A DNA stretch of 12,369 nt from Burkholderiales bacterium (GTDB lineage Bacteria > Pseudomonadota > Gammaproteobacteria > Burkholderiales > Burkholderiaceae_C): positions 1-12,369 of the forward strand of contig SXXD01000202.1 of assembly GCA_005789685.1 (NCBI GenBank), written 5' to 3'. The position numbers and the translations under genes are program-made. The notes beneath the pieces are model-generated. The model ran no database searches. It saw nothing but the letters and a program-made list of their open reading frames with translations, and had not been told where the DNA came from. Below, piece after piece: positions 376 through 12,369 of this stretch (the first letter of the stretch is position 1; each line of letters starts with the position of its first letter).

Positions 376-1829
<1,454 letters not shown>

Positions 1830-1833
<4 letters not shown>

Positions 1834-3305
1834 TTTGCGCCTCCTGGTTGATGGAGGTGAAAGTCGGTGGCTTGCTGCAAGCGATGTGCGGCATTGAGCA
1901 ACTGAGCTTCTTTGAAGTAATTGCCAATGAGCTGCAAACCAACAGGCATGCCGTTTTCGCCAAAACCAGCTGGCACACTCATGCCTGGCAAGCCTGCTAA
2001 TGAAGCAGGCAAGGTGAAAATATCGGCCAAATAATTGGCGACAGGGTCATCTGTTTTTTCGCCCAATTTCCAAGCCACGGTGGGCGCCACAGGTCCGGCA
2101 ATCACATCGCAAACTTGGAAGGCTTGCTGAAAATCATCAGAGATCATGCGGCGAATTTTTTGCGCTTGTAAATAGTAAGCATCGTAATAACCGTGCGACA
2201 ACACATAGGCGCCCGTCATGATGCGGCGCTTGACTTCTTCGCCAAAACCTTCAGCGCGCGAGCGCTTGTACATTGACACCAAGTCCGTGTAGTCTTTGGT
2301 GCGATGGCCAAACTTGACGCCATCAAAGCGGCTTAAATTGCTAGACGCTTCTGCTGGTGCAATGATGTAGTAAACAGGAATAGAAAGTTCTGTGCGCGGC
2401 AAGCTGATGGACACCAAGGTGGCACCGAGTTTTTCATATTCTTTCAAGGCGGCATCGACCGCAGTGCGCACACCCGTTGCAAGCCCTTCACCAAAAAATT
2501 CTTTGGGAATGCCAATGCGCAAACCATCGAGTGACGCGTTCAAATCGCGTGCAAAGTTTTCTGCAGGCACATCGAGAGACGTTGAGTCGCGGTCGAGATC
2601 GGGTCCGCACATGGCCGACAACATGAGCGCGCAATCTTCTGCGGTGCGCGCCATGGGGCCAGCTTGGTCCAGACTGGAAGCGAAGGCAATCATGCCGTAA
2701 CGTGAAGCGCGGCCATAGGTGGGTTTGATGCCCGTGATGCCGCAAAAGCTGGCGGGCTGTCGAATGGAGCCGCCCGTGTCAGTTCCCGTTGCAGCAGGTA
2801 CCAAGCGCGCCGCAACCGCTGCAGAGCTACCGCCCGAAGAACCGCCAGGCACACGCGATGTGTCCCAAGGGTTTGTGACGGGTTTGTAGGCCGAGTTTTC
2901 GTTGGACGAGCCCATGGCGAATTCATCGCAATTGAGCTTGCCCACATTGACCATGCCAGCGCCGCCAGCCTGTACGCCCAATTTGCGCACCACGGTGGCG
3001 TCAAAGGGTGAGCGATAGCCCTCTAGTATCTTGGAGCCGGCTGTGGTGGGAAAGTCGGTGGTTACAAAAATATCTTTGTGCGCCATGGGCACACCAGCCA
3101 AGGGGCCTGCTGTGCCTGTGGCCAACTGCGCATCGGCTTCATTGGCTTGCGCCAGCGTAGCTTCTGGGTTGAAGCTTAAAAAAGCGCCAGATGTGTCGGC
3201 CTGGCAGCGTGCCAAAAAGTGCTGGGCGACCTCCTTGGCGCTGATTTTTTTAGCGCGAAGGTCGTCTGACAACGCGGCAACGGTCTTGTCGTGTAAAGCT
3301 GTCAT
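1830..3305 (-). CDS. gatA: Asp/Glu-tRNA(Asn/Gln) amidotransferase subunit A (amidase)
   Basis: GatA hydrolyses glutamine and channels ammonia to GatB. It belongs to the amidase-signature family with a Ser-cisSer-Lys triad. Numbering from the ATG at 3305 (491 residues), Lys77 lies in AHKDIF, the cis-Ser is Ser156 in PGGSSGGS, and the nucleophile is Ser180 in TGTDTGGS. Spacing of the two serines (24 residues) fits the family. Motif [11 protein letters not shown] follows, and the C-terminus carries [10 protein letters not shown] and GLQLIG, typical of GatA. An upstream in-frame TTG at 3323 would add six residues but would overlap the gatC end. The ATG is preferred because AAGGGG (3312-3317) sits six bases before it and MTALHDKTV resembles normal GatA N-termini. 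The gap to gatC is 10 bp, and the 3' end overlaps gatB by 4 bp. Confidence 0.97.
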
Positions 3306-3315
3306 GTAGGGCCCC

Positions 3316-3615
3316 TTACTCAATCACTTTGGGGACCAAAAACAGGCCACGCTCGACAGCAGGGGCACTTCGTTGGTTGGCTTCCCGTTGGTTGGGCTCG
3401 CTGGCAATGTCGTCGCGCAAACGCAGCGCCACTTCCTGAATGGTGGCAATGGGGTGCGGCAAGGGCTCGACACCCGTAGTGTCCACAGCGCGCATGGCTT
3501 CCACAATGCTGAAAAAGCCGTTGATTTGGTCCAACATGCGTTGGCCCTCCTCGGGCTGAAGCTCTAACCGCGCCAAATTGGCAATCCGGTCAATTTCTTG
3601 GGCGGTCAATGACAT
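3316..3615 (-). CDS. gatC: Asp/Glu-tRNA(Asn/Gln) amidotransferase subunit C
   Basis: GatC (99 residues) is the small belt-like subunit that wraps around GatA and GatB and stabilises the complex. The N-terminus [19 protein letters not shown] is the hallmark of the family. It is followed by the helix containing [29 protein letters not shown] (broken here by natural variation) and an extended tail of the LRDD type. It is first in the operon, ten bases upstream of gatA, in the common order gatC-gatA-gatB. The start ATG (3613-3615) has only a weak purine-rich ribosome site (AAAGAA, at a distance), so translation may rely on an A/U-rich leader. Stop is TAA. Confidence 0.95.
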
Positions 3616-4873
<1,258 letters not shown>

Positions 4874-4881
4874 CGCAATTC

Positions 4882-5763
4882 ATGGCGCTAGATTTTCTTG
4901 ACCGCTCAACCCCACCTTTTTTCAGGGTGGGCTTAGCGCCCCTGACCAAACTCATTTTTTTCAGCGCTCTCTCTTTGCTGCTGATGTTTGGTGACAAACA
5001 GCTGCAGTTCACCAAACCCCTGCGTGCAGGGCTTTCAACCCTGATTCTGCCTGTTCAATGGTTGGTGCTACAACCAGGCGAAGTATTGTCAGTCATCGGC
5101 ACTTATTTTCAGAGCTTGAATCAAGCCCAAAAAAATCTGAAGGCTGCAGAACTCAAGATCCTTCAACAGTCTTTGCGATCGCAACAAGTTGAGCAGTTGC
5201 AAATTGAAAATCAAAATCTTCGCTTGCTCATGGACCTTCAGGCCAGCATCGCCGTTTCATTTCAGACGGCCGAAGTTTTATTTGATGTTCCAGACCCCTA
5301 CAACCAACGCATTGTGATCGACCGAGGCCAACTCAAAAACGTGGCACTGGGTTCTCCCGTCATTGACGCGGGCGGTGTTGTTGGACAAGTCACGCGAGTT
5401 TATCCATTGACGTCCGAAGTCACCCTTCTGACCGACAGAGACCAAAGCATTCCAGTACTCAACAGCCGCACTGGCGCCCGCAACATCACCAGTGGCGACG
5501 TCATGGCAGGTCAGCCCATGATCGAACTTAAATTTGTGCCTGCCAGTGCCGATGTGAAAGTAGGCGACTTCCTCACCACCAGTGGCATTGATGGCGTCTA
5601 TCCTGCAGGACTTCAAGTGGCGCGCATCAGTCACATTGAGCGGCGCGTTGATATTTCTTTTGCCAGAATTCATGCAATTCCCTTGGCAGAACTCAAAGGT
5701 CGCCATGTCTTGGTTTTGCAGCCCTCTGCGGCTTCAGCACTCAACAAAGGCAAAACGCCATGA
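4882..5763 (+). CDS. mreC: Rod-shape determining protein MreC
   Basis: MreC (293 residues) is a bitopic inner-membrane protein whose periplasmic part links MreB/MreD to PBP2 and activates it. The sequence shows a short cytoplasmic N-terminus, one transmembrane helix at about residues 21-37 (LTKLIFFSALSLLLMF), a periplasmic coiled coil at about 75-118 rich in Gln, Glu and Leu, then the beta-domain. That domain contains RIVIDRGQLKNVALGSPVI and VGDFLTTSGIDGVYPAGL, the best conserved MreC segments. Length is normal for betaproteobacteria. The start lies 14 bp after the mreB stop; no Shine-Dalgarno is visible, so coupling to mreB is likely. The TGA stop overlaps the mreD ATG by four bases. Confidence 0.96.
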   Translation: MALDFLDRSTPPFFRVGLAPLTKLIFFSALSLLLMFGDKQLQFTKPLRAGLSTLILPVQWLVLQPGEVLSVIGTYFQSLNQAQKNLKAAELKILQQSLRSQQVEQLQIENQNLRLLMDLQASIAVSFQTAEVLFDVPDPYNQRIVIDRGQLKNVALGSPVIDAGGVVGQVTRVYPLTSEVTLLTDRDQSIPVLNSRTGARNITSGDVMAGQPMIELKFVPASADVKVGDFLTTSGIDGVYPAGLQVARISHIERRVDISFARIHAIPLAELKGRHVLVLQPSAASALNKGKTP

Positions 5764-6281
5764 TCATGAGTCGCCGCGAGGCCTTGTTGTTACCCGTTAG
5801 CCCTTGGTTTATCGCCCTCAGCCTTTTATTGTCCTTGCTTTTCAGCATGCTGCTTGGCTTGTCTCAAGCCCTTTGGATTCCTGATATTTTGGCTGTCTGC
5901 ATTTTCTTTTGGGGCATCCACCAGCCACGACGAGTCGGCATGGCCACTGCATTCATGCTCGGTTTGTGGATGGATGTTCAGCACTCATCCCTGTTCGGCC
6001 AGCATGCTATGTCATATGTTGTGCTCAGTTACTTTGCGCTCAGCATGCACCGCCGCCTGCTTTGGTTTCCCATCAAAGAGCAGATGCTTCAAATCTTGCC
6101 ATTCTTCATTTTGGTAGAGGCCATTAGCCTGCTCATTCGTTTAAGCACGGGAGATGATTTTCCAGGTTGGACCATGTTGCTGTCCCCCTTCATCGAAACT
6201 TTGTTGTGGCCTGTGGCCAATTTAATTTTGCTTGCGCCGCAACGAAGAGCACACGACCCCGACGCCAATCGGCCGATCTAA
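5760..6281 (+). CDS. mreD: Rod-shape determining protein MreD
   Basis: MreD (173 residues) is a polytopic inner-membrane partner of MreC in the elongasome. The protein is strongly hydrophobic with about five to six membrane segments (roughly residues 15-35, 38-53, 59-73, 80-98, 106-126 and 140-160). It contains the typical RVGMATAFMLGLWMDV stretch in which an Asp follows a small helix, and it has a charged C-terminus. Identity rests on this profile plus position between mreC and mrdA. The ATG at 5760 overlaps the mreC stop (ATGA). AAGG at 5747-5750 is nine bases upstream, which favours this start over the ATG two codons later at 5766. Only three bases separate it from mrdA. Confidence 0.92.
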   Translation: MIMSRREALLLPVSPWFIALSLLLSLLFSMLLGLSQALWIPDILAVCIFFWGIHQPRRVGMATAFMLGLWMDVQHSSLFGQHAMSYVVLSYFALSMHRRLLWFPIKEQMLQILPFFILVEAISLLIRLSTGDDFPGWTMLLSPFIETLLWPVANLILLAPQRRAHDPDANRPI

Positions 6282-6284
6282 AGC

Positions 6285-8279
6285 ATGGCCTTTCACCTGC
6301 CCTCGTTGAGCGAGTTGCGCAACACCGAGTTTGAAATATTCAAATTTCAAACCCGTGTGGTGATTTTGCAAGGCGTGGTCTTGATGTGCTTTGCACTCTT
6401 GGGTATTCGTTTGTTTTACCTTCAAGTCATTCGGCATGAAGATTTGCTAGAGCAAGCTGAAAATAACCGAACTGCTGTGATTCCTACAGTGCCCAACCGA
6501 GGCACCATCCTCGATCGCAATGGTGTGGTGTTGGCCAATAACTATTCAGCTTACACCCTAGAAATTACGCCTGCGCGCGTCAAAGACTTGGACGCCACCA
6601 TCGACAGCTTGTCGAAAATCATGGAAATTTCGTTTCGCGACAAAAGGCGTTTCAAGCGTATGAACGAAGAGTCTAAAAATTTTGACTCACTGCCTATTCG
6701 TTCGCGACTGACAGAAGAAGAAGTGGCCATATTTACGGCGCACAAATTTAAATTTCCAGGCGTTGAAATCAAAGCCCGGTTGTTTCGAAATTACCCCTTT
6801 GGCCATTTAGCCAGCCATGTGGTGGGCTACATTGGGCGCATCAATCAAAAAGAAAAGGAAGAGATTGAAGAGAGTGAAGACGAGGCCAATTACCGCGGCA
6901 CACAATACATTGGCAAGCTTGGCGTCGAGCAACGCTATGAGCGTGAGCTTCACGGCATTACAGGCGTTCAGGAAGTCGAAAAATCTGCTGCCGGTCGTGC
7001 CGTTAGACGACTGGCCAGTCGTCCTGCTACGCCGGGTCAAAACGTCGTGTTGTCAATCGACATCAAACTACAAAACATGATTGAAGATCTTTACGGCGAG
7101 CGGCGAGGTGCGTTGGTTGCACTCGACCCCCGCACAGGCGAAATCTTGGCCTTCGTCAGCAAGCCCACGTTTGATCCCAATTTATTTGTCGATGGCATCG
7201 ACAGCGAAAGCTGGAAACTCTTAAGTGAGTCCATTGACAAGCCATTGTTAAATCGCGCCATGCGAGGCACCTACCCACCTGGCTCAACCTACAAACCTTT
7301 CATGGCCATGGCAGCACTTGAAACTGGCAAACGCAGCGCCAGCGAAATTGTCAATGACGCAGGCTCTTGGACTTATGGTGGGCACACTTTTAGAAGCCAC
7401 GGCGATGCAGGCTTAGGGCCTGTCGACATGGTCAAGTCCATCGTGCTTTCCAGCAATGTTTACTACTACTCGCTGGCCAACACCATGGGCGTCGACACCA
7501 TTCATGACTTTATGAAACCACTTGGATTTGGCCAACTCACAGGTGTCGATTTACCCGGTGAGCTGCGCGGCACCTTGCCCAGTACAGATTGGAAAAAGAA
7601 AACTTATAAAAAGCCAGAGCAACAACGTTGGTATGGCGGTGAAACTATTTCACTGGGCATTGGACAAGGCTACAACGCGTTCACAATGCTACAACTGGCT
7701 AGCGCCACCAGCACATTGGCCAATGGTGGCATTTATCGCAAACCTCGTTTGGTCATGGCCACGCAAGATCCCATTCAACGCGTAGACCGAGTTGTGGCCG
7801 GTGAAGAGCCAATCAATTTAGGCTTCAAGACAGAGAACGTGGCAGTGGTTCATCAAGGAATGATCGGTGTGGCCAAAGTGGGCACCGCTGCTCGTGTGTT
7901 TGCTGGCACACCTTATCAAAGCGCCGGTAAAACTGGCACAGCGCAAGCCGTAACCATTGGGCAAAAAGAAAAATACAACGCCAGCAAGTTGGACGAACAT
8001 CAACGCGATCATGCTTTGTACATCGCGTTTGCGCCCGCAGAAAACCCCCAAATTGCGCTGGCCATCGTGGTCGAAAACGCAGGCTTTGGTGCCGCTCAAG
8101 CCGCGCCCATTGCCAGGCGCATTTTTGATTATTGGTTAGTGGGTGACTACCCCAGCGTACTGGACATTGAAGCTTCTCAAAAAGGTTTGGCTTCAACGCC
8201 CGTCGGTGTCAAAAGACGCAAGGAAGACATACAACTTGCGCCAAGTGAAGGCGTGGTGGGTGGCATTAAAAATCGTTGA
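6285..8279 (+). CDS. mrdA: Penicillin-binding protein 2 (elongation-specific transpeptidase)
   Basis: MrdA/PBP2 (664 residues) cross-links peptidoglycan during side-wall elongation, under control of MreC and together with the RodA glycosyltransferase. The sequence shows a cytoplasmic N-terminus, a membrane anchor at about 27-48, the PBP dimerisation (pedestal) domain with PNRGTILDRNG (70-80), and the transpeptidase domain. Its three catalytic motifs are SxxK with Ser334 (GSTYKPF), SxN at 389-391 (SSN), and KTG at 549-551 (GKTGTAQ). This spacing agrees with PBP2 of other proteobacteria. The C-terminus is a short basic tail. The start follows the mreD stop by three bases and has no strong ribosome site, consistent with coupling. 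The expected partner gene rodA does not follow: a convergent tRNA gene begins 5 bp after the stop. Confidence 0.97.
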   Translation: MAFHLPSLSELRNTEFEIFKFQTRVVILQGVVLMCFALLGIRLFYLQVIRHEDLLEQAENNRTAVIPTVPNRGTILDRNGVVLANNYSAYTLEITPARVKDLDATIDSLSKIMEISFRDKRRFKRMNEESKNFDSLPIRSRLTEEEVAIFTAHKFKFPGVEIKARLFRNYPFGHLASHVVGYIGRINQKEKEEIEESEDEANYRGTQYIGKLGVEQRYERELHGITGVQEVEKSAAGRAVRRLASRPATPGQNVVLSIDIKLQNMIEDLYGERRGALVALDPRTGEILAFVSKPTFDPNLFVDGIDSESWKLLSESIDKPLLNRAMRGTYPPGSTYKPFMAMAALETGKRSASEIVNDAGSWTYGGHTFRSHGDAGLGPVDMVKSIVLSSNVYYYSLANTMGVDTIHDFMKPLGFGQLTGVDLPGELRGTLPSTDWKKKTYKKPEQQRWYGGETISLGIGQGYNAFTMLQLASATSTLANGGIYRKPRLVMATQDPIQRVDRVVAGEEPINLGFKTENVAVVHQGMIGVAKVGTAARVFAGTPYQSAGKTGTAQAVTIGQKEKYNASKLDEHQRDHALYIAFAPAENPQIALAIVVENAGFGAAQAAPIARRIFDYWLVGDYPSVLDIEASQKGLASTPVGVKRRKEDIQLAPSEGVVGGIKNR

Positions 8280-8284
8280 ACATG

Positions 8285-8360
8285 TGGTGCGGCTGGCGGG
8301 GATCGAACCCACGACCCTTGGCTTCGGAGGCCAATACTCTATCCACTGAGCTACAGCCGC
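8285..8360 (-). tRNA. tRNA-Arg(CCG)
   Basis: The minus strand folds into a complete cloverleaf. The acceptor stem GCGGCTG/CAGCCGC is a perfect 7 bp. The D arm is GCTC/GAGT, and the anticodon stem TTGGC/GCCAA carries loop CTCCGAA. The variable loop has 5 nt, and the T arm GTGGG/CCCGC has loop TTCGATC. The discriminator A and an encoded CCA end at 8285. The anticodon CCG (plus-strand 8325-8327) reads CGG, hence arginine. The body without CCA is 73 nt, the standard class I size. It converges on mrdA with a 5-bp gap. On its own strand a T5 run (plus-strand AAAAA at 8268-8272) lies just downstream, inside the mrdA 3' end, and may help stop transcription. Confidence 0.97.
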
Positions 8361-8389
8361 GCCTGATTCATTGCTGAGAGTGGTTGCCG

Positions 8390-8395
8390 ATTATG
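8390..8395 (-). promoter_or_regulatory. Probable extended -10 of the tRNA-Arg promoter
   Basis: Read on the minus strand, TGC precedes CATAAT, a TGn-type extended -10 with five of six matches to TATAAT. It would start transcription around 8383, about 20 nt before the mature tRNA 5' end, a usual leader length. No good -35 box is seen at 16-18 bp, which an extended -10 can tolerate. An inverted repeat CCCCT/AGGGG (8403-8418) overlaps the expected spacer/-35 zone. Confidence 0.4.
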
Positions 8396-8449
8396 GCATG
8401 CGCCCCTTATTTCAGGGGTTTCAATGGCCAACCCAAATCTCTCGGAGGT

Positions 8450-8455
8450 TATAAT
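8450..8455 (+). promoter_or_regulatory. Consensus -10 box of the cytochrome c5 gene
   Basis: A perfect TATAAT lies 60 bp before the cytochrome ATG, giving a predicted 5' leader of about 50 nt. The -35 region is poor (TGGCCA at 19-bp spacing is the nearest), so activation or a relaxed promoter is possible. The gene's ribosome site GAGGA (8506-8510) is four bases from the start. Confidence 0.45.
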
Positions 8456-8514
8456 CAAAGGCTAATTCCGATCAACCGGACACCACAGTTCACTAGAGAT
8501 TCATTGAGGACGCT

Positions 8515-9030
8515 ATGAGCGACAACAGCCAAGATCAAGCCCACGAAGACCACACTGGCCCGGTCAAAACGCCGAAGCAAATGTTGATGTTGAGTTTTGC
8601 CTCTTTTGTCATTCCCGTTTTCATCATCATTGGCTTGGTGTACTACGTTACCTCGGCCAACAAAACGGCCCCTGGCGGTGACACCGAACGTTCTGTAGCA
8701 GAGCGCATTCAAAAAGTAGGCACCGTTGAAATTCGCGATGCCAACCGTCCCATGAAGGCTGGCCAAGAAGTTTACAAAGCGCAATGTGCTGCTTGCCACG
8801 ACGCTGGTCTCGCTGGTGCTCCTAAGTTTGCAGATACAGGTGCATGGGCACCTCGCATCAAAACGGGTTATGACGCCTTGCTTAATTCTGCCCTCAAAGG
8901 CAAAAACGCCATGGGCGCACAAGGTGGTGGCGATTACAGCGACCTTGAAATTGGCCGTGCTGTTGCTTATTTAACCAACTCTGCGGGCGGCAAGTTCAAA
9001 GAGCCAGAAGCGCCTGCTGAGAAAAAGTAA
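8515..9030 (+). CDS. Membrane-anchored monohaem cytochrome c5-family protein
   Basis: This 171-residue protein is a c-type cytochrome that should shuttle electrons in the periplasm while tethered to the inner membrane. It has a 23-residue hydrophilic N-terminus, an uncleaved membrane helix at about 24-46 and a charged linker, then one haem site CAACH (residues 91-95; His95 is the axial ligand). The segment AGAPKFADTGAWAPR after the haem site is characteristic of the cytochrome c5 family. Met133 in NAMGAQGG is the likely second axial ligand, and the domain closes with the helix LEIGRAVAYLTN. The tail is rich in Glu, Pro and Lys. It is monocistronic, with its own -10 box and a terminator 40 bp downstream. 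The partner oxidase or reductase is not encoded nearby, so its place in the respiratory chain is not known from this window. Confidence 0.9.
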   Translation: MSDNSQDQAHEDHTGPVKTPKQMLMLSFASFVIPVFIIIGLVYYVTSANKTAPGGDTERSVAERIQKVGTVEIRDANRPMKAGQEVYKAQCAACHDAGLAGAPKFADTGAWAPRIKTGYDALLNSALKGKNAMGAQGGGDYSDLEIGRAVAYLTNSAGGKFKEPEAPAEKK

Positions 9031-9069
9031 CTTACACAGCACACTCCCTAGAATGGGGGGCTGCTTTTC

Positions 9070-9100
9070 AAACCGCTCGATGCAAATCAGCGCGGTTTTT
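9070..9100 (+). terminator. Intrinsic terminator after the cytochrome gene
   Basis: AAACCGC (9070-9076) pairs with GCGGTTT (9092-9098) around a 15-nt loop, and the stem runs into a T-rich tail (six T from 9096). This is a plausible Rho-independent terminator for the plus-strand cytochrome transcript. An alternative fold uses CGCT/AGCG within the same element. It overlaps the end of the convergent 181-residue gene, whose TGA stop (9087-9089) falls in the loop, so it may act on both strands, though the minus side lacks a good T-run. Confidence 0.65.
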
Positions 9101-9632
9101 TATTGGCACCCGCGGGACTGAGGGTGTAGCCAAATTGATTGGGCATGTCGGCCGCCTTCATGGACTCTAGGGGCCACAAGCCAAGTTCCAAACCCTCTGC
9201 CGCTTTGGCCACATCCAAGGTGTGGAGTAAGCCAAAACCCATGGCCGTTTGAAAATACACCCGCCCTGCTTCATCGGTGTAACAAATTTCTGCTTGAGTT
9301 TCTGCGCCCGTTTGCGCTGTTAATTTGAAGTCCGAGGACAGTCGCCAAACAAAGGGGGTTGCAGCTAGCTCCACATAAACACGCTGCGGCCCATTTTGAA
9401 AAAACCAGGCACCCGTTAAATCTGGCGCGTAGTTGCGGTGAATGAATTCAATCAATTTTTCATGGTGCAGCAAGGATCCTTTGGCGCCAGGCGCACCGCT
9501 TTGAAAGCTGCCAAAAGCCTGCGCGGGGTCATCTCTGAGGTACCAATGTCCGCGTTCATCCAAGCCCAGCCAACCATAACAGTTGGGCACATTGGGCCAC
9601 TTGGCCATGGCTTGTTTGACAATATCGTCCAT
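9087..9632 (-). CDS. Conserved protein of unknown function, 181 residues
   Basis: I do not recognise a defined function. The protein is soluble-looking, with no signal peptide or membrane helix, and is rich in aromatic residues. Its N-terminal part, with PNVPNCYGWLGLD (about 14-26) and RGHWYLRDD, is followed by HHEKLIEFIHRNY (about 56-68) and the striking WFFQNGPQRVYVEL (about 76-89). The middle holds beta-type alternation (FVWRLSSDFKL, ICYTDEAGRVYFQT). I have an impression of similar proteins in Burkholderiales genomes, annotated as a DUF, but give no number because I cannot verify it. It starts 10 bp after the hydrolase stop and is last in a three-gene minus-strand cluster with the NTF2-like and hydrolase genes. 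The start ATG has no strong ribosome site, so translation is probably coupled. Normal codon character and intact frame support a real gene. Confidence 0.85.
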   Translation of the reverse strand: MDDIVKQAMAKWPNVPNCYGWLGLDERGHWYLRDDPAQAFGSFQSGAPGAKGSLLHHEKLIEFIHRNYAPDLTGAWFFQNGPQRVYVELAATPFVWRLSSDFKLTAQTGAETQAEICYTDEAGRVYFQTAMGFGLLHTLDVAKAAEGLELGLWPLESMKAADMPNQFGYTLSPAGANKKPR

Positions 9633-9642
9633 GGTTTTGATC

Positions 9643-10632
9643 TTAGTGGATGTGCTGTAACAACCATTTGCCCACAGCCTTTGGCATGGCTTTCAAATGC
9701 CCTGGCCATGAACCACTTGCAAAGCCAACATGGCCACCATCGTCTGGTTGCCAGAGTGTGACGTGAGCACTGACTTTTTCCAAAGTTGGCAAACTGTCAT
9801 AAGGAATGAAGGGGTCATTCTTGGCATTCAAAGCCAAGGCTGGCAATGCAATGCGTCCCATGTGCTGCAGCGCCGAAGCACGCAGCCAATAGTCATCGGT
9901 GCTTTTAAAACCATGCAAGGGCGCTGTGAACACATCGTCAAACTCATAGAGGTCTTGGGCCGCCATGAGTTTTTTGGCGTCAAACAGGCCAGGAAACTGC
10001 TTGAGTTTGGCCATGGCTTTGGGCTTCATGCTGCGCAAAAACATGCGTGAGTAAACCTGCCGGTTAAAACCTTGACCGATGGCGTGGCCGCTGGCAGTCA
10101 GGTCTAAAGGTGAACAAATTGAAGCCACTGCATTGACAACTTTTTGCGCTGACTGGCCGTGCTCACCAGCCCAGCGCATCAATGCATTGCCTCCCAAGGA
10201 CACACCCGCTGCCAATAGACCGGGCCGACTTTGTGCATCGACCACGCGCTTGAATTTGCGCAGCAAATGGTCTATCTCTTCATGGTCGCCTGAGTGATAC
10301 GCACGTGGCGCCAAGTTCAAAGTACCACTGCAACCTCTGAAGTGCGGGACGGCAATGTCGCACCCGTTTTGCAAACCCCAATCGGCAAAGGCTTGCGAAT
10401 AGTGACTCGCAGAAGAGCCCTCCAAACCATGAAATAGCACCAACAAGGGTTTTGAAATCTGAGAAGGCTTGGCTTCGCAAAAGTCGACATCCACAAAGTC
10501 ATCGTCTGGTGTGCTCCAACGCTCGCGCCGCCAACAGGGCGCAGTTGTCTCAAGCCTGCGTGACCACCTTGCAGACCAAATGGTTTGAAAATGGCCGCCG
10601 GGCAACCATGAAGGTGCTGCGTAATCTTTCAA
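9643..10632 (-). CDS. YheT-type alpha/beta hydrolase (predicted esterase), TTG start
   Basis: This 329-residue protein belongs to the alpha/beta-hydrolase group of YheT (UPF0017), predicted cytoplasmic carboxylesterases of unknown substrate. Seen: the N-terminal SWLPGGHFQTIW motif that marks the group (residues 8-19), the oxyanion strand LLVLFHGLEGS (63-73), HFRGCSGT (97-104), and the nucleophile elbow GVSLGGN with Ser145. The acid is probably Asp273 in NAKNDPFIP, and the catalytic His is His301 in DDGGHVGF. The triad is therefore complete. No ATG fits. The frame is closed upstream by TAA, and the first usable codon in register with the family N-terminus is TTG at 10630-10632. It overlaps the preceding gene's TGA as TTGA (4-nt overlap), which supports this start and implies translational coupling. 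It lies between the NTF2-like gene and the 181-residue gene. Confidence 0.92.
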   Translation of the reverse strand: MKDYAAPSWLPGGHFQTIWSARWSRRLETTAPCWRRERWSTPDDDFVDVDFCEAKPSQISKPLLVLFHGLEGSSASHYSQAFADWGLQNGCDIAVPHFRGCSGTLNLAPRAYHSGDHEEIDHLLRKFKRVVDAQSRPGLLAAGVSLGGNALMRWAGEHGQSAQKVVNAVASICSPLDLTASGHAIGQGFNRQVYSRMFLRSMKPKAMAKLKQFPGLFDAKKLMAAQDLYEFDDVFTAPLHGFKSTDDYWLRASALQHMGRIALPALALNAKNDPFIPYDSLPTLEKVSAHVTLWQPDDGGHVGFASGSWPGHLKAMPKAVGKWLLQHIH

Positions 10633-11078
10633 TGAAGTACCGATGGGCTTGAGGAAACTTCGGCAGGCGCGTTAGGTGTGCCCGGACTGGCGTGGTGCGC
10701 CACCATGCGCCAGCCTTGCGGCGTCTTGTGATACACATTGGTGGTGAGCACATAGGCCGTTTGCGGGCCGTCAGAGCCTAATACTTCAACACGCTCCACC
10801 AAATGATGCATGGCGCTGGCCAATGAATCGACCTTGTGAACATTTGTAGGGTGCGCTTGCACGGTGCCGTTGGCAAACATGGCCTCAAAGGTGGCACGTA
10901 TGGCACCAGAGCCAATTAAGCGTGGGCCACCCGGGTGAACACACACAATTTCTTCTTCATCGGCCCAACACGCCATGAGGCGCTCAATGTCGCCTTGCCT
11001 TAGTGCGTCGTAAAACGCGGCCTCGATATCGTCAGGGTTGCCACCCAATGTGGCGGCTTGAAGTTTGGCTTTGCGCAT
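10629..11078 (-). CDS. NTF2/SnoaL-like domain protein (DUF4440-type), function unknown
   Basis: This 149-residue protein has the shape of a one-domain cone-like NTF2-superfamily fold. Features are an N-terminal helix DIEAAFYDALRQGDIERLMACW (interrupted by nothing and typical of SnoaL-like/DUF4440 proteins), then EEEIVCVHPGGPRLIGSGAIRATFEAMF, then beta strands, among them AYVLTTNVYHKT and GWRMVAHHAS. Members include ketosteroid-isomerase-like enzymes and many proteins with no known activity; the substrate cannot be read off. It has no signal peptide and a loose Ser/Pro tail. The ATG at 11076-11078 has a good Shine-Dalgarno AAGGA (11083-11087). It follows the atp-operon terminator by only 15 bp and overlaps the hydrolase gene by 4 bp. 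This indicates it heads a three-gene cluster read either by leak-through from atp or from a promoter inside atpC. Confidence 0.88.
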   Translation of the reverse strand: MRKAKLQAATLGGNPDDIEAAFYDALRQGDIERLMACWADEEEIVCVHPGGPRLIGSGAIRATFEAMFANGTVQAHPTNVHKVDSLASAMHHLVERVEVLGSDGPQTAYVLTTNVYHKTPQGWRMVAHHASPGTPNAPAEVSSSPSVLH

Positions 11079-11093
11079 GGTGTCCTTAGAAAC

Positions 11094-11118
11094 AAAAAAC
11101 CCGGCGTGCGCCGGGTTT
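11094..11118 (-). terminator. Strong Rho-independent terminator of the ATP synthase operon
   Basis: On the minus strand AAACCCGGC pairs with GCCGGGTTT (9 bp, GC core) across a GCAC tetraloop, and the stem is followed by T residues to give six T in a row (11099-11094). It lies 34 bp beyond the atpC stop, in the right orientation to end the atp transcript. On the plus strand there is no T-run after the stem, so it is directional. Confidence 0.85.
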
Positions 11119-11152
11119 CAGAAAACTTGTCAGCGTTTGCAACGCCCACATT

Positions 11153-11569
11153 TTATTTTTTAGTGCGGAACTTGCGCAAGGCTGCCAGTTGCGCTGCAAA
11201 CACAGCCAACTCACTTTGCGCACGTGCCATGTCGATTTCAGTCTTGGCATTGCGAAGGGCGTCTTCTGCTGCTGCTTTAGCGGCATTGGCTTTTTCTTCG
11301 TCCAAGTCTTTACCGCGAATGGCAGTGTCTGACAACACGGTCACGTGGTCGGGCTGCACTTCCAAAATACCACCAGCCACGAAGACAAACTCTTCGGTAC
11401 CGTCGGTTTTTTCGATGCGAACAGAGCCAGACTTGATGCGTGAAATGAGTGGTGTGTGGCGGGGGTAAATGCCCAACTCGCCAGCTTCACCAGGCAAGGC
11501 CACAAACCGGGCTTCACCTGAGAAGATGGACTCTTCGGCACTGACCACATCAACGCGGATGGTGTTCAT
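11153..11569 (-). CDS. atpC: F1Fo ATP synthase epsilon subunit
   Basis: AtpC (138 residues, usual size) is the central-stalk epsilon subunit that couples rotor movement to F1 catalysis and can inhibit ATP hydrolysis. Residues 1-85 form the beta-sandwich: [18 protein letters not shown], the conserved [18 protein letters not shown] (about 25-42), SGSVRI, and [19 protein letters not shown] (about 63-81). The rest is the two-helix C-terminal domain, Ala-rich and ending in a basic tail. The ATG (11567-11569) has an excellent Shine-Dalgarno AAGGAA (11576-11581) six bases upstream. It lies 34 bp after atpD in the canonical last position of the atp operon and is followed by the operon terminator. Confidence 0.97.
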
Positions 11570-11594
11570 AGTTAGTTCCTTGAAAAGAGTTTAC

Positions 11595-11615
11595 AAAAAT
11601 GGCTTACGCCATTTT
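11595..11615 (-). other. GNRA-tetraloop hairpin with T5 tail at the atpD–atpC junction
   Basis: On the minus strand AAAATGGC pairs with GCCATTTT (8 bp) closed by a GTAA tetraloop, a GNRA type, and is followed by one more T (five in a row, 11599-11595). The loop contains the atpD stop TAA (11604-11606). The arrangement looks like a weak terminator or a 3'-end stabiliser between atpD and atpC, where epsilon is needed at one third of the beta-subunit dose. The fold is seen directly; the regulatory role is inference. Confidence 0.5.
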
Positions 11616-12369
11616 CTTGGCCTTTTCGAAGGCTTCATCAATGCTACCGACCATGTAAAAGGCTTGCTCTGGTAAGTGATCGCACTCGCCAGCCACAATC
11701 ATCTTGAAACCCCGAATGGTTTCGGCCAATGTGACGTACTTGCCAGGTGAGCCTGTGAAGACTTCAGCCACGTGGAAAGGCTGCGACAAGAAACGCTGAA
11801 TCTTACGGGCACGGGCCACAGACAACTTGTCTTCCGGCGCCAAGTCGTCCATACCCATAATGGCAATGATGTCGCGCAGTTCGCGATAACGCTGCAATGT
11901 GCCTTGCACAGCGCGTGCTGTTTCGTAGTGATCAACACCCACGACCAAAGGATCGAGCTGACGGCTTGTAGAGTCCAAAGGATCAACCGCGGGGTAGATG
12001 CCCAAAGAGGCGATGTCACGAGACAACACCACGGTGGAGTCTAAGTGAGCAAACGTTGTAGCAGGTGATGGGTCGTTCAAGTCATCGGCAGGCACGTAAA
12101 CGGCTTGGATGGAAGTGATAGAGCCAACTTTGGTCGAGGTAATACGCTCTTGCAACGGGCCCTTTTCTTCGGCCAGTGTTGGCTTTTAACCCACTGCTGA
12201 TGGCATACGACCCAACAAGGCGGACACTTCGGTACCGGCCAATGTGAAGCGGTAGATGTTGTCCACGAAGAACAACACGTCTTTGCCTTCGTCACGGAAA
12301 GATTCGGCAATGGTCAAGCCTGTGAGGGCCACGCGCAAACGGTTGCCTGGTGGCTCGTTCATCTGACCG
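11604..12369 (-). pseudogene. atpD: ATP synthase beta subunit, 3' part, interrupted by an in-frame TAA
   Basis: AtpD carries the catalytic nucleotide sites of F1. The window holds its C-terminal half; the P-loop lies upstream, outside. Sixty residues from 12368 read [15 protein letters not shown], then [16 protein letters not shown] and [10 protein letters not shown] without fault. TAA follows (12186-12188), and the same frame resumes with [36 protein letters not shown] (the DELSEED loop) and [13 protein letters not shown] to the normal C-terminus. Family proteins read GYQPTL at the stop, so the Tyr codon is replaced. Next to it Gln has become Lys, Met of EEMG has become Lys, and the residue after that Gly is Pro. 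No frameshift is needed to join the halves. It is either a broken gene with a functional copy elsewhere or a consensus error; the rest looks under full selection, which favours error or a very recent lesion. Confidence 0.85.

Follow-up and report, generated by a model that had tools for sequence, protein, structure and literature searches.

An atpD fragment with an in-frame TAA

The stretch of DNA analysed here (the window; 12,369 nucleotides) is one whole contig, C142, among the 299 contigs of a 1.81-Mb assembly that is estimated to be 73% complete and 1.4% contaminated, and the genome is very likely metagenome-assembled. On the minus strand at its far end lies the 3' part of atpD, encoding the beta subunit of the F1 ATP synthase (Table 1). 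This piece comprises 255 codons including the terminal stop and is cut at position 12369, where the window ends; a TIGR01039 search of the 73%-complete assembly did not find the 5' part of the gene elsewhere. In the profile search, which reads through stops by design, the fragment scored 467.7 bits over positions 209-462 of the 462-position profile, with one internal TAA, and thereby exceeded the curated cut-off of 462.85 bits for membership in the AtpD family. In the consensus, the frame runs open from 12368 as far as its final stop (TAA, 11606-11604) except at bases 12188-12186, where a TAA flanked by GGT (Gly) and AAG (Lys) interrupts it; relatives read Gly-Tyr-Gln-Pro-Thr-Leu at this place. 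The first-pass annotation had placed the stop at the tyrosine of this GYQPTL motif, and the comparison with relatives bore this out. It was also roughly right in putting the stop two thirds of the way through atpD, as codon 61 of the fragment falls near profile position 269 of 462, i.e. at about 58%.

Table 1. Coordinates of the atpD fragment, its altered codons and the adjoining contig end.
Feature	Position in window	Strand	Remark
3' part of atpD (F1 ATP synthase beta)	11604..12369	-	truncated by contig end; TIGR01039 and translation
In-frame TAA	12186..12188	-	Tyr in 29/29 relatives
AAG (Lys), codon adjoining TAA	12183..12185	-	Gln in 29/29 relatives
AAG (Lys)	12162..12164	-	Met in 29/29 relatives
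CCG (Pro), two neighbouring bases differ	12156..12158	-	relatives: Arg 28/29, Lys 1/29
TTC (Phe)	12246..12248	-	Tyr in 29/29 relatives
Final 109 contig bases, beyond the cluster	12261..12369	-	2 differences vs G019, at third codon positions, silent

The adjoining atpC has an intact frame and scores above its family cut-off. By its score and by this neighbour, within a stretch that aligns throughout to the syntenic relative G019, the fragment resembles an ordinary AtpD; it differs in being cut by the contig end and broken by one TAA in the consensus. Family models back the gene names atpD, mreB, mrdA and atpC, while the other names used for the window (e.g. mreD) are our assumption or that of the first-pass annotation. 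Between mrdA and atpC, positions 8515-11078 likewise align to G019 throughout and encode a cytochrome c-like protein whose NCBIfam matches fall far short of the cut-off, a protein of 181 aa that matches no NCBIfam model, a PRK10985-like hydrolase (224.1 bits against a cut-off of 267) and an SgcJ/EcaC-like protein, again below cut-off.

Departures from the relatives in residues and bases

A DNA search of 60 genomes, including the window's own, returned matches in 54, i.e. in 53 of the 59 others. Sequences were compared for 29 of these 53 (L004-L032; 27 from the same genus and two from the same order). Within codons 41-71 of the fragment, five residues of the window (Y to F, Y to stop, Q to K, M to K and R to P) were seen in none of the 29. 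At four of these sites all the relatives agree, and at the fifth 28 have R and one has K. Only two of the 31 columns in this region vary at all among the 29. Elsewhere, the remaining 224 codons contain just three residues unseen in relatives: two at sites where the 29 do not vary (codons 98 and 183) and one at codon 242, a site with T or G in the relatives. Besides, 21 loci from named records were inspected, nine of which have an atpD match; the seven that cover the motif all carry Tyr, at least three of these seven being genomes already counted among the relatives. Three loci that are close to the window in mreC (L043, L044 and L046) gave no atpD match.

A similar picture emerged from five syntenic relatives, the nearest of which is G019 (91.5% match over 12.0 kb). 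Where these five agree, the window departs from them in residue at seven of the 255 atpD codons, and five of the seven fall into codons 41-71. When seven changes were placed at random, five landed within 31 codons in 1.2% of 200,000 trials, a figure to be read in the knowledge that the stretch was picked after the data had been seen. The crowding of improbable changes that an error near a contig end would produce is thus present here, as five residues in 31 codons. In mrdA (window 6285-8279), the same comparison gave 17 departures in 653 codons, a rate like that of atpD. The distribution is uneven there, too, with 13 of the 17 in codons 66-264, although this stretch is far longer than the atpD cluster.

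At the level of bases, the window differs from all five agreeing syntenic relatives at 182 of the 11,539 columns in which each of the five has a base. All seven of these strictly unique bases in 12150-12260 are transversions, compared to 74 of 175 in the rest of the contig (Fisher one-sided P = 0.003). The excess of transversions is weaker when G019 is the only reference (10 of 15 differences in 12150-12260 vs 427 of 991 in 376-12149). Two more bases in 12150-12260 are common to none of the five relatives, which vary there; the third base of the TAA is one of those two and hence stands outside the seven. In two instances, the altered bases are immediate neighbours (12186/12185 and 12157/12156).

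As judged from these comparisons, the pattern does not resemble a single recent nonsense mutation, nor does the remainder of the atpD fragment look like a decaying gene. A lone point lesion would leave the Q, M and R changes nearby unexplained, and the framing in the first-pass annotation, a single lesion at what it took to be the adenine-contacting tyrosine, found no support: the TAA belongs to a cluster of five altered residues within 31 codons, close to where the contig ends. That annotation had mentioned neither the Lys codon beside the stop nor the three other altered residues, and it could not have known that window and contig end together.

The contig end and a second atp contig

Measured from the end of C142 that truncates atpD (counting the last base as 1), the altered cluster occupies bases 123-214 and the TAA codon itself bases 182-184. 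Such distances would be within reach of one read or of a break in the assembly graph, and in its closeness to the contig end the cluster is placed as an error of this kind would be. The outermost 109 bases look clean, their two differences from G019 both being silent, so quality does not simply decay toward the contig end. Nor did we find support for the idea that contig ends are generally broken in this genome: among 16 family matches that start 214 or fewer bases from the beginning of a contig (counted by hand, at contig starts only), none contains a stop. The atpD cluster would therefore be a local fault.

Another contig, C124, carries genes that we take, by eye, to be atpE, atpF, atpH and the beginning of atpA. 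Its TIGR01039 match of 77.3 bits is below the cut-off, and we read it as atpA. The similarity of this atpA to G019 (94% identity over 2155 bases) halts abruptly at base 2159 of the C124 locus (L002), though the G019 stretch continues, and the next 170 bases have a GC content of 71% vs 53% before. Assuming the usual left flank of 1,500 bases, the end of C124 is probably 246 bases past the family match. Together, this suggests a chimeric join, and positions 2159-2418 of L002, after the first part of atpA, appear to be a chimeric contig end. In a Pfam scan of this odd tail, the sole match was to Lyase_1, below threshold (E 0.028), and the gene it may contain was therefore left unnamed.

Explanations for the apparent stop

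The first-pass annotation had left error, recent lesion and recoding side by side; the comparison with relatives favours the first of these, and terminator use and the family matches contradict the last. On sequence grounds, the TAA is very probably an error of sequencing or assembly. In this reading, several wrong bases would lie close to the end of C142, in a short stretch (about 12156-12247) that is probably backed by few or poor reads, and one of these wrong bases would turn the Tyr codon into TAA, while the cell itself would hold an intact, ordinary atpD. If so, the reads should contradict the consensus or back it thinly. Errors of base calling or joining at the contig ends of short-read metagenomes offer a known parallel, which the present case matches in that the cluster lies within about 215 bases of the end in a fragmented, incomplete genome, that the altered residues occupy conserved positions and that another contig of the same operon ends in an apparent chimera. 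The likeness is not complete, however, as the 109 bases next to the contig end look correct and family matches at the sampled contig starts are free of stops. Most likely, then, the apparent stop is ordinary and does not reflect new biology. It also counsels caution: when a stop turns up in an essential gene of a fragmented environmental genome, the neighbouring codons, the relatives and the contig ends should be checked before biology is invoked.

We consider it unlikely that atpD is really broken, through a cluster of mutations left by error-prone repair, in a cell or subpopulation that lives otherwise or relies on another, unassembled copy. The TAA does stand in the consensus, the final 109 bases of the contig look clean and the genome's other family matches are stop-free, all of which would fit a true lesion. 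A second copy may also be missing from a genome that is only 73% complete. The first-pass annotation had proposed a genome-wide search for such a copy, and our profile search returned nothing beyond C142 and the sub-threshold match on C124; given the incompleteness of the genome, the absence of a second atpD proves little. Likewise, a pattern for the motif hit a single site in the genome, the one in the window. On the other hand, the fragment outside the cluster appears to be under constraint, with its three unseen residues in 224 codons, the adjoining atpC has an intact frame, and the relatives G019 and G005 each gave one atpD match over the cut-off in the family search. We hold it to be distinctly improbable that a real population exists in which a local mutation cluster has broken atpD at the Tyr codon and which manages with no normal ATP synthase or by means of a second copy that escaped assembly. 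Were the lesion true, the question would be how a freshwater bacterium that is presumed to respire makes its ATP.

Far less probable still is a mixture of strains, in which reads from another strain or species, or from a degraded copy, were merged into the consensus near the contig break. The contig does break inside a highly conserved gene, and the neighbouring contig seems chimeric, as such merging might leave them. However, the stop would not have come from a donor whose atpD is intact, and among the 16-base words of 12150-12205 just one recurs in the other loci compared, bearing none of the changes. No exact copy of the altered stretch (51 bases) was found in the genome contigs, a search from which the window's own genome was possibly excluded.

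That TAA encodes an amino acid in this case can practically be dismissed, for although the atpD frame is open on both sides of the codon, residues near it are altered as well, TAA terminates seven of the 13 further genes whose ends lie in the window (the remaining six have TGA) and none of 132 genome-wide family matches (ABC_tran, 61; BPD_transp_1, 27; adh_short, 23; AMP-binding, 21), three of which score below their own family's cut-off, contains an internal stop. A reassigned TAA would be expected to recur inside conserved genes and to have fallen out of use as a terminator, and the same counts contradict both. The first-pass annotation had likewise judged recoding unlikely, citing gatB, gatC, mreB, the cytochrome gene, the hydrolase gene, atpC and atpD as genes ending in TAA; its list is correct, and mreD can be added to it.
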